From IMG/VR virus record IMGVR_UViG_3300044628_000381, positions 1-20,330 of that record: a stretch of DNA of 20,330 bases. The stretch is one strand, 5' to 3'. Below are positions 6,167-9,173 of this stretch, one piece after another; within the stretch, counting starts at the first letter, position 1, and each line of letters opens with the position of its first letter. Origin of the DNA: a virus. The position numbers were made by a program, and so were the translations under genes. The notes under the pieces were generated by a model. It searched no databases. It was not told the origin of the DNA and worked only from the letters and a program-made list of their open reading frames with translations.

Positions 6167-6544
6167 ATGAAAACTACTGAACATCAAGAACAGGTCGCAC
6201 TAGTTACATGGTTTAGATTGCAATACAAGCAATACAAGTATCATTTATTTGCTATTCCCAATGGCGCACACTTAGCTGGTGATGCAAGACTGCGAGCAAT
6301 TAAAATGAATGCAATGAAGGCTGAAGGATTGTTGCCAGGCGTCAGCGATTTAATGTTAATAGTGCCTAAATCAGGCTGGCACGGTATGTTTATTGAAATG
6401 AAAAGTAAGACTGGTCATCTATCAGATAACCAAAAAGAGTTTATGGGCGCAGCTACACTTATGGGCTACCAAGCTGTGGTCTGCTATTCTTTTGAAGATG
6501 CTAAAGATGCTATTACAAACTACTTGCATGAAAGCAAAAGTTAG
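6167..6544 (+). CDS. VRR-NUC domain nuclease
   Basis: The 125-residue product is a stand-alone VRR-NUC domain of the PD-(D/E)XK superfamily. Visible are E5/Q8 in the first helix, IPNGAH (30-35), PGVSDL (57-62, catalytic D61), FIEMKSKTG (75-83, E77-x-K79) and the glutamine-rich helix LSDNQKEF (85-92). Stand-alone viral members cleave branched DNA such as Holliday junctions or flaps, so it may resolve replication or recombination intermediates before packaging. GAGGA lies 6 nt before the ATG. It is the first gene of the rightward early operon. Confidence 0.92.
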   Translation: MKTTEHQEQVALVTWFRLQYKQYKYHLFAIPNGAHLAGDARLRAIKMNAMKAEGLLPGVSDLMLIVPKSGWHGMFIEMKSKTGHLSDNQKEFMGAATLMGYQAVVCYSFEDAKDAITNYLHESKS

Positions 6545-6550
6545 TATAAT
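6524..6550 (+). promoter_or_regulatory. Candidate promoter for the HNH leader
   Basis: A perfect TATAAT (6545-6550) immediately follows the VRR-NUC stop codon, with TTGCAT (6524-6529) 15 bases upstream. The spacer is short, so strength is uncertain. It would start an RNA near 6557, in front of the structured leader. Confidence 0.45.
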
Positions 6551-6556
6551 GTATAG

Positions 6557-6722
6557 GTATTGGCTTGATAAACCAATACTACAAACGGAGTATCAAATGC
6601 AATTTATTTATATTAGTTTTTATTCAATAGCGGAGTCGGTAACTACTTCGTTGGCTTCCGTGCGTGGTTTTTACTTGTTGGACTTATCATCCAGCCCGCT
6701 ACTGAATAGGAATTAATATGAA
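6557..6722 (+). promoter_or_regulatory. Structured leader RNA that can bury the HNH start
   Basis: Three elements are seen. A 7-bp hairpin GTATTGG/CCAATAC (6557-6579, 9-nt loop). A very long stem pairing 6607-6633 with 6696-6722: 27 positions, one mismatch (6627/6702) and four G-U pairs. Inside its 62-nt cap, a 6-bp hairpin with a 7-nt loop (6677-6695). The right arm contains the HNH Shine-Dalgarno (AGGA, 6708-6711) and the HNH ATG (6718-6720), so folding should block HNH translation. Translation of the small frame at 6597, which enters the left arm, would open it. Confidence 0.65.
6597..6716 (+). CDS. Leader small ORF, 39 aa, possible frame problem
   Basis: The frame starts MQFIYISFYSIAES and has an excellent ribosome binding site (CGGAG, 6 nt before ATG). 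It ends one base before the HNH start codon. The second half is Ser/Leu-rich and looks unlike a protein. In the -1 frame, from 6617 to 6709, lies a convincing membrane segment (VGNYFVGFRAWFLLVGLII) without its own start. A one-base shift in the TTTTT run (6617-6621) would join the start to it. Either the shift is a sequencing or natural frameshift, or the frame is a leader peptide whose translation opens the 27-position stem. Confidence 0.45.
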   Translation: MQFIYISFYSIAESVTTSLASVRGFYLLDLSSSPLLNRN

Positions 6723-7260
6723 GCGAAAAAGCATATCAAAAAAATTAAGATTTGAAATTTTTAAGCGTGACCAATTTACTTGCCAATACTGTGGTTCACA
6801 TCCACCGTCAGTTATTTTGCATATTGACCACATCATTCCAGTTAAGAGTAATGGGGATAATAGTATTGATAATTTAATAACCTCATGCTCATCTTGTAAT
6901 TTAGGAAAATCAGCAAACTCATTAAACGATATACCTCAATCTTTAAAAGATAAAGCGGCAATAATTAAAGAGTCTGAGTCGCAACTTAAAGAATATGCAA
7001 AAGTAATGCAAGAAAAGAAAGACAGAATATATGGTGAAACATGGAGGATTGCAGCTTCATTAGAAAATAAAGATTATGTTAAAGAATATAATTCTCACGA
7101 ACTAAAAACTATTGAACAATTTATAGGAAAAATTGGATTTTTTGAAGTTCAAGATGCAGCAGAGTTATCTTTTAATAAATTCCCATATACAACACATAAT
7201 AAATTTAGATACTTTTGCGGAATATGTTGGAATAAGATTAAGGAGAATAATCATGGCTAG
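6718..7260 (+). CDS. HNH endonuclease with C-terminal phage replication-type domain
   Basis: The 180-residue product opens with a classical HNH fold: IFKRDQFTCQYCG (14-26), IDHIIPV (36-42) and DNLITSCSSCNLGK (51-64), with zinc ligands C22, C25, C57, C60 and catalytic H38. Residues 70-120 are helical. The C-terminal 60 residues (QFIGKIGFFEVQDAAELS to YFCGICWNKI) form a small domain seen in other phage HNH proteins and probably bind DNA or a partner. It may nick branched or host DNA, or be a free-standing homing nuclease. Its start is inside the long stem of the leader. It overlaps the replication protein start. Confidence 0.88.
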   Translation: MKRKSISKKLRFEIFKRDQFTCQYCGSHPPSVILHIDHIIPVKSNGDNSIDNLITSCSSCNLGKSANSLNDIPQSLKDKAAIIKESESQLKEYAKVMQEKKDRIYGETWRIAASLENKDYVKEYNSHELKTIEQFIGKIGFFEVQDAAELSFNKFPYTTHNKFRYFCGICWNKIKENNHG

Positions 7261-8026
7261 AGCTAGAAACATTAAGCCAGCTTTTTTTCAGAATGAAGAC
7301 CTGGCAGAATTAAAACCAATAGACAGATTAGCTTTTATAGCAATGTGGACTATTGCTGATTATCGTGGTTGTATTGAATATCGTGCAAAGCGATTAAAAG
7401 TACAGTTATTACCTTACGATAATTGCGATATTGATTTAATCGTTACAAATCTAGAGCAGTCACGATTTATCACGACTTATAATGTCAATGGACAGAAGTA
7501 CATCAAAGTGCTTAATTTTGAGAAGCACCAGAACCCACATCCTAACGAAAAGAAGGCAGGTAGCACAATCCCTGATATTAGCGAAAGTAATAATAATATC
7601 AATGAGTTACAAAATATCGTGACAAATCACGACAAAGACGGAACTAATCGTGCTGATTCCCTCATCCCTATTACTGATTCCCTATTACCTATAGAGAGCA
7701 AAAAACAAACCATTAAAGGCTCACGTCTTTCTCAAGACTGGATAATCCCTGATGAATATATAGAATTCTGTAAAACAGAACGCCCAGATTTAGATGTTAA
7801 ATTAGTAGCTGATAACTTTAAAGACTTTTGGATTAGTAAAAGTGGTAGTGATGCAACTAAGTTAGATTGGTTTGCTACATGGCGCAACTGGGTGAGAAAA
7901 GAACGTGTTATTAGTAATGTTAAAAAGCCAATGAAAGGCTATGGCTTTATATCTGACGCAGAATTTAATGATTGGCTAGACTCTGCACCTATACAAGAAA
8001 GGATTGCAAATGAACGACTCTCATAA
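7253..8026 (+). CDS. Phage replication initiation protein (O-like)
   Basis: The 257-residue product opens MARARNIKPAFFQNEDLAEL, the start of a widespread phage replication protein with a winged-helix DNA-binding domain (residues about 1-105, ending VLNFEKHQNPHPNEKKAG). A polar linker (about 110-170) leads to a C-terminal domain (IIPDEYIEFCKTERPDLDV to TWRNWVRKE) shared with primosome proteins such as lambda O. It should bind the phage origin and recruit the helicase loader encoded next. AAGGAG lies 7 nt before the ATG at 7253. The reading frame is open upstream, but this ATG has the good site. The tandem polar linker is a plausible place for an origin, though no iterons were seen. Confidence 0.82.
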   Translation: MARARNIKPAFFQNEDLAELKPIDRLAFIAMWTIADYRGCIEYRAKRLKVQLLPYDNCDIDLIVTNLEQSRFITTYNVNGQKYIKVLNFEKHQNPHPNEKKAGSTIPDISESNNNINELQNIVTNHDKDGTNRADSLIPITDSLLPIESKKQTIKGSRLSQDWIIPDEYIEFCKTERPDLDVKLVADNFKDFWISKSGSDATKLDWFATWRNWVRKERVISNVKKPMKGYGFISDAEFNDWLDSAPIQERIANERLS

Positions 8027-9005: not shown

Positions 9006-9173
9006 ATGACACACACAGAATTTAAAGAGGTACGAAGTAAAACAGGCTTAACGCAGACCGAGTTTGCTAAACGATTATTTAAGACTAGAGATAGCATTGC
9101 TAAGTATGAGTCAGGTAAGTTTAATATCCCAGCTTATATGGATGTATTGCTAAAGGCTACTTTTAATGACTGA
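9006..9173 (+). CDS. Small XRE/Cro-type HTH regulator, 55 aa
   Basis: The product starts MTHTEFKEVRSKTGLTQTEF and shows the XRE helix-turn-helix: GLTQTEFAKRL (14-24) as helix 2 and RDSIAKYESGK (28-38) as recognition helix. At 55 residues it is Cro-sized and has no C-terminal oligomerisation or cleavage domain. It has its own promoter and a strong GGGAG site, so it is probably made independently of the neighbouring genes. A natural target is the inverted repeat at 6072-6093, but this is only inference. No CI-type repressor is visible in the window. Confidence 0.8.
   Translation: MTHTEFKEVRSKTGLTQTEFAKRLFKTRDSIAKYESGKFNIPAYMDVLLKATFND

Follow-up and report, generated by a model that had tools for sequence, protein, structure and literature searches.

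Plasmids often meter their replication initiator by means of a leader frame combined with an RNA stem. In the I-complex plasmids, production of the initiator needs translation of a leader peptide, and an antisense RNA is directed against it (PMC10286972). In the S004-repA system of Salmonella genomic island 1 (SGI1), the leader ORF runs into an inverted repeat that masks the start of repA together with its ribosome site; RepA is lost when the leader ORF carries an early stop, and both translation of the leader in cis and an intact repeat are required (PMC7826253). In the phage Gifsy-1, orf45 is coupled to anrP under the control of IsrK (PMC4825925), while the stems of T4-type homing endonuclease genes (I-TevI, segB, mobE) hide ribosome sites, a block that a late promoter within the hairpin relieves (PMC2988022). 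A review covers two models of translational coupling, unfolding and reinitiation (PMC12548453).

The leader described here, which we call type 1, lies in a 20,330-nucleotide stretch of viral DNA (IMG/VR record IMGVR_UViG_3300044628_000381, positions 1 to 20,330; hereafter the window). As in SGI1 S004-repA, its nearest counterpart among experimentally tested systems, a leader ORF runs into a long inverted repeat predicted to mask the ribosome site of the next gene, ahead of a replication gene. SGI1 is an integrative element, whereas the type-1 leader belongs to phages; the SGI1 leader frame overlaps repA by four codons, with the overlap inside the repeat, whereas the type-1 frame spans both arms; and the type-1 leader adds a 5' hairpin with possible loop contacts and can have a mobile HNH gene in first position. 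With the IncIalpha/IncB repY-repZ (repB-repA) leaders, which have an antisense RNA and a pseudoknot, it shares a leader peptide, a hidden initiator ribosome site and a 5' hairpin loop that may pair with a later segment. However, no antisense RNA was found here, and the partner of the type-1 loop is an apical loop that the stem encloses. The minus strand opposite the 5' hairpin (H1) carries one weak promoter-like site (6571-6543), at chance level, and a cmscan of 6500-6800 with E up to 5 gave no match to Rfam PK-repZ.

Gifsy-1 IsrK/orf45/anrP, P4 seqA-CI and P1 c4-icd-ant likewise have a phage leader RNA and a small coupled frame before the regulated gene, but these systems act in trans through a short RNA, whereas the type-1 leader is a candidate cis switch. 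The Rfam models for P1 C4, P4 CI and int-alpA have no match in the window (its relatives L194 and L085 match int-alpA). The T4-type stems resemble it in that a stable stem buries a ribosome site, in the window that of an HNH gene; they belong to the endonuclease gene itself and have no described coupled leader frame, whereas the type-1 leader has one. The initial annotation stated that no phage regulator of this form had been described, which is too strong given the T4 stems (PMC2988022) and Gifsy-1 (PMC4825925); moreover, the same switch acting on a replication gene has been shown experimentally in SGI1 (PMC7826253). At gathering and permissive thresholds, Rfam 15 contains no family for the leader of the window, and the type-1 leader RNA family appears to be undescribed and absent from Rfam. 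A minus-strand match to TwoAYGGAY was set aside as chance (20 vs 43 bits).

Table 1. Features of the type-1 leader and of the genes that follow it in the window.
Feature	Position	Strand	Basis
Putative sigma-70 promoter, TTGCAT - 15 nt - TATAAT	6524..6550	+	sequence; overlaps the 3' end of the VRR_NUC gene
5' hairpin H1, 7 bp, loop CUUGAUAAA	6557..6579	+	fold; stem covariation
H1 loop UGAUAA, proposed PK1 kissing partner of UUAUCA 6684-6689	6566..6571	+	inferred
Leader-frame Shine-Dalgarno region AACGGAGUA (PK2 side)	6584..6592	+	complementarity, inferred
Leader frame, 39 codons (MQFIYISFYSIAESV...)	6597..6716	+	ORF kept in all ten leaders
Main helix left arm, conserved 20 pairs (window pairing out to 6607)	6614..6633	+	covariation
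3' hairpin, 6 bp, 7-nt loop CUUAUCA	6677..6695	+	fold, covariation
Main helix right arm with AGGA 6708-6711 (window pairing out to 6722)	6696..6715	+	covariation
HNH endonuclease gene (PF01844), first gene after the leader	6718..7260	+	domain match
Replication initiation gene	7253..8026	+	PHROG replication initiation protein, E 2e-47

The long stem pairs 6607-6633 with 6696-6722. The pairing reported for it in the initial annotation, 26 of 27 positions with four G-U pairs and a sole mismatch at 6627/6702, proved exact to the base in a base-by-base check (22 Watson-Crick and 4 G-U pairs). The stem had also been judged unlikely by chance, and its helix score of 22 is indeed the highest in the window, where the runner-up reaches 13.5; the maximum was 15.5 among dinucleotide shuffles of the stem region (n = 1000) and 16.5 among shuffles of the whole window (n = 8). 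Folding of 6540-6760, the check recommended at that time, gives −56.6 kcal/mol (z = −3.85), a value equalled by none of 200 shuffles. The 7-bp hairpin at 6557-6579, the capping hairpin of 6 bp with a 7-nt loop and the TATAAT box (6545-6550) are all present as first described. The right arm had been said to hold both the AGGA and the ATG of the HNH gene; the AGGA (6708-6711) does lie within the 20 pairs that the helix has in common with its relatives (6614-6633 x 6696-6715), but the ATG at 6718 falls just beyond them and is paired only by the additional outer pairs of the window. The same helix is predicted when the near group of relatives is folded alone. In the model, the ribosome site of the next gene has a pairing probability of 1.00 in the free RNA, which drops to 0.32 when a ribosome occupies the left arm and to 0.00 when one stands at the leader stop. 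There is no U run after the stem, the right arm being followed by AATATGAAGCG, and a reading as an intrinsic terminator or attenuator was rejected on this ground. A riboswitch was rejected because the near group, L125 and L070 do not share a conserved stem interior.

The promoter is plausible from its sequence, though not canonical, its −35 box being poor; with a spacer of 15 it was missed by a scan for spacers of 16-18 nt. TTGCAW and −10-like boxes occur at the equivalent site in L063, L120 and L123. The stem of H1 covaries, with UUGG/CCAA replaced by UCGG/CCGA in L120, L123 and L049.

Further leaders were found in viral contigs using one left-side and one right-side motif, and the type-1 leader is now known from ten distinct phage contexts. 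L125 was found with a pattern that leaves the loop free; it scores 51.8 bits, and its outer arm is mostly different, with compensation. L070 came to light only through the covariance model (48.9 bits, E 1e-9). Two core patterns of the leader gave zero matches in GTDB genomes, and the L125 leader gave none in phage and plasmid records. Nine distinct type-1 sequences were aligned by fitting them to a model for which only the near group had been used. In this alignment, which leans towards its model and in which the near-group pairs are mostly invariant, 98.3% of the cells of the main helix are paired and 13 of its 20 pairs have changed on both sides; for all 32 pairs, 96.8% of cells are paired and 15 pairs have changed on both sides. 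On each of the five measures used, all 500 shuffles fell short, and with slid partners 35-44% of cells are paired. Pairs anchored by hand in nine leaders (L070 left out) agree with the alignment, and in L125 all 20 innermost positions are paired in this way, several of them via two-sided changes. As eight of the ten leaders are close relatives, much of the covariation is contributed by L125, by L070 and by the groups of L118 and L120. A lack of covariation in homologous leaders had been named beforehand as the finding that would count against the stem; the stem survived this comparison, and the pattern of changes indicates that it is a selected RNA structure. As a separate observation, L070 has an extra hairpin of 11-12 bp (AAAGCCCACTT.../AAGTGGGCTTT) at 770-850, within the main stem of its type-1 leader.

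The small frame with a ribosome site noted earlier at 6597 is present, with a GGAG site. It crosses both arms, and its TAA (6714-6716) lies one base before the HNH ATG. In each of the ten leaders, a frame of 33-41 codons stays open through the stem; its start codon (TTG in L123) has a GGAG- or AGGA-like site ahead of it, which is weaker in L125. The leader stop lies one base before the next ATG (TAATATG) in the window, L063, L114, L118 and L119, overlaps the next start as ATGA in L070 and L125, and falls inside the right arm, about 17 nt upstream of the next start, in L049, L120 and L123. Since the second half of the leader RNA is read in two different frames between the two near groups, the nucleotide conservation there is not peptide conservation, and openness is what is kept. 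Conservation of the leader at the RNA level does not by itself prove that the frame is translated. Comparison of the leader peptides with Pfam and PHROGs gave nothing usable, and a match of the L125 peptide in phage RcKemmy was rejected, as it is antisense to annotated genes.

Which gene follows the leader varies. One HNH type (a) is the first gene in the window and in L063 and its copies, and another (b) in L049, L114, L118 and copies; the two are mutually dissimilar. In L119, L120 and L123 a DUF1376 replication gene follows the leader immediately, without an intervening HNH gene, and in L125 the next gene encodes a DnaD/O-like loader, so that a DUF1376/primosomal or DnaD/O-like gene comes first behind four of the ten leaders. 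The DUF1376 proteins match primosomal and replication initiation PHROGs. In L070, a remnant of 69 amino acids, which by eye resembles the C-terminus of HNH type b, separates leader and replication gene. The next start codon is equally distant from the conserved core in the eight near relatives (window included), and across leaders its spacing from one and the same inner pair hardly changes, whichever gene comes first. The regions upstream of distant relatives of the HNH protein are unrelated. Because replication genes without HNH follow it at a fixed start distance, the leader belongs to the replication operon. By its distribution it is best read as the 5' switch of that operon, with the HNH gene as a passenger. 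In the window the replication initiation gene comes second; its ATG and the HNH stop overlap by 8 nt, and the HNH gene can therefore pass ribosomes on. The initial interpretation is supported for a selected stem that hides a Shine-Dalgarno sequence and for a leader frame that stays open despite changes of sequence or frame; a role specific to the HNH gene is not supported.

In the mechanism that we propose, the promoter just upstream would start an RNA near H1, making 6551-6720 the 5' leader of the replication operon. Once this RNA is folded, the helix of 20 pairs would hide the Shine-Dalgarno sequence of the first gene (here HNH; in relatives, a replication gene). Ribosomes starting at the leader ATG would have to unwind both arms and would end one base before the ATG at 6718, so that the next gene may start by unfolding, by reinitiation or by both; the 8-nt overlap would then carry ribosomes from HNH on to the replication initiator. 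If the start of the next gene needs ribosomes from the leader frame, its output would depend on how often that frame is started, which may be tuned by contact of its own Shine-Dalgarno sequence with the stem interior (PK2) and by contact between the loops of H1 and the 3' hairpin (PK1); an RNA acting in trans, or simply the supply of ribosomes, may also set the rate. We consider it probable that the leader frame is translated and that this opens the stem and lets the replication operon start. A plasmid-like metering of the replication initiator, by leader frame and RNA stem, would thus appear before phage replication genes. Such a switch would also explain how mobile HNH genes can head a replication operon and leave it intact, as they would inherit the switch and pass translation on.

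The two contacts are individually weak (p 0.01-0.19). PK1 (UGAUAA/UUAUCA) is possible in all near relatives and is kept in eight of the ten leaders, with a chance probability of about 0.05 each; its counterpart in L125 is UGGU/ACCA. For PK2, AACGGAGUA at 6584-6592 is complementary to UACUUCGUU at 6644-6652 (a 9-bp match) or to CUUCCGU at 6655-6661, and the contact thus has alternative partners. It reads CAGGAUG/CAUCCUG in L118 and AAGGAUG/CAUCCUU in L120, L123 and L049; its chance probability is 0.01-0.05 per sequence, and 0.19 in L114. In L125 neither contact is significant alone, and PK2 is not clear there.

A survey of the same position in 80 DUF1376 loci and in VRR_NUC and replication loci revealed a second, doubly pseudoknotted leader, type 2, of which about 35 distinct cases remain after removal of chance matches (L036 3385-3505, L038 3367-3490, L062 2525-2640, L067 2330-2450 and about 30 more). 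Its 5' hairpin loop is perfectly complementary to a later segment and occurs in eight variants (UUGACGG, UUGGCGG, UUGGAAG, UUGCAGG, UUGGUAG, UUGGCAG, UUGGUCG and UGGUGG); some type-2 leaders use UUGGCG/CGCCAA, as do the IncIalpha/IncB leaders. A second contact, from the linker, is mostly of 6-7 bp and is compensated in more than 12 variants; the search did not select for it, and by chance about 0.13 per locus would be expected. The contacts were assigned with anchors. Both partner segments are enclosed by a long stem that resembles a terminator and has a U run, before a first gene that may be DUF1376, GIY-YIG, HNH or another. Type 2 is not in Rfam 15. The order of parts is common to both types (5' hairpin, linker, long stem enclosing the partners), type 1 ending in a buried ribosome site and type 2 in a terminator; a shared origin is only a suggestion. 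GIY-YIG genes (T5orf172/MUG113) stand first behind the type-2 leaders of L062 (2650-3010) and L042, and mobile endonuclease genes thus recur right behind replication leaders, GIY-YIG on type 2 and HNH on type 1. Upstream of the replication gene, L043, L093, L140, L142 and L202 have a leader of a third type, with another loop pair (GGACUAG/CUAGUCC or GGUCAAG/CUUGACC, for example) and a U-run stem. A structure like int-alpA RNA (RF02996) lies directly before the DUF1376 gene in L194 (1409-1483, below the gathering score), with similar ones in L151, L164, L165, L175 and L184-L192, which suggests that int-alpA functions in replication control; the int-alpA match in L085 scores 37 bits.

Between the window and L063-L066 the leader DNA is 96% identical over 221 bp, compared with 66% for the flanking HNH protein and 59-64% for VRR_NUC. 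The VRR_NUC protein of L036 is 96% identical to that of the window (6167-6544), yet L036 has a type-2 leader on DUF1376 and no HNH gene. Judged from these identities, leader and first gene behave as exchangeable modules, with a sharp exchange at the leader, and this points to a wider group of such replication-leader RNAs, open to testing, among environmental phages. A further step, in which type 1, type 2, the third type and int-alpA are exchangeable replication-leader modules whose loop letters specify identity, a short RNA made from one leader blocking only loop-matched genomes, is offered as a rather doubtful proposal. If true, it would mean plasmid-like, RNA-specified copy control or superinfection immunity in phages without detected integrases, and mobile HNH and GIY-YIG genes would exploit this switch by sitting directly behind it.

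The likelihoods that we give for other explanations are not exclusive of one another. Control in trans, in which cleavage or termination would release H1, or the leader as a whole, as a small RNA whose loops pair with the leaders of other genomes, would provide immunity or copy control in the style of P1 C4, P4 CI or IsrK, with the leader frame as the target. We regard it as possible, if doubtful. The complementarity between the loops of H1 and the 3' hairpin is consistent with it, as are the type-2 leaders at the same position, where both loop contacts covary completely, the presence of int-alpA, a listed small RNA, at this position in other phages, and the precedent of Gifsy-1 IsrK (PMC4825925). 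Against this, the type-1 PK1 loops are nearly invariant and H1 is not separated from the stem by a terminator. In six contigs of 35-42 kb, possibly incomplete, integrase (PF00589), resolvase (PF00239) and rve (PF00665) domains were all searched for and none was found; there is therefore no sign of lysogeny in them, and lysogenic immunity is so far unsupported.

Cleavage of the 20-bp duplex by RNase III, freeing or destroying the downstream ribosome site, is unlikely to be the function of the stem, although it deserves to be taken seriously as a rival or a companion of the translational switch. RNase III processing has a precedent in the N leader of phage lambda, the duplex is long and regular, and rapid cleavage would explain selection for pairing alone. 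It would leave unexplained why the leader frame is open through both arms and how stop and start are arranged, and a non-pairing position lies within the helix in eight of the nine hand-checked sequences.

Very unlikely, and largely refuted, is control specific to HNH, in which the stem would keep a homing endonuclease silent at early stages of infection, as with I-TevI, SegB and MobE of T4-like phages. The first gene of the window is indeed an HNH endonuclease with a buried ribosome site, and endonuclease hairpins of this kind are known (PMC2988022); however, the leaders of L119, L120, L123 and L125 serve replication genes without HNH, two dissimilar HNH types follow other type-1 leaders, HNH relatives from other phages either carry another leader or lack one, and 6551-6720 contains no T4-type late promoter (TATAAATA), nor did the promoter scan find any on the + strand there. 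That the long inverted repeat near replication genes acts as DNA, as a protein site, cruciform or part of an origin, is scarcely credible. The wobbles of the helix are consistently G-U when read on the + strand, and the model gives the reverse strand 28-36 bits compared with 118-131 bits, both of which argue for an RNA read from the + strand; the repeat also keeps a constant place with respect to promoter and start codon, and loop contacts and leader frame would go unexplained.

Downstream of the operon start, at 9006-9173 and in the same direction, the window contains a small helix-turn-helix gene, its sole HTH_3 match.
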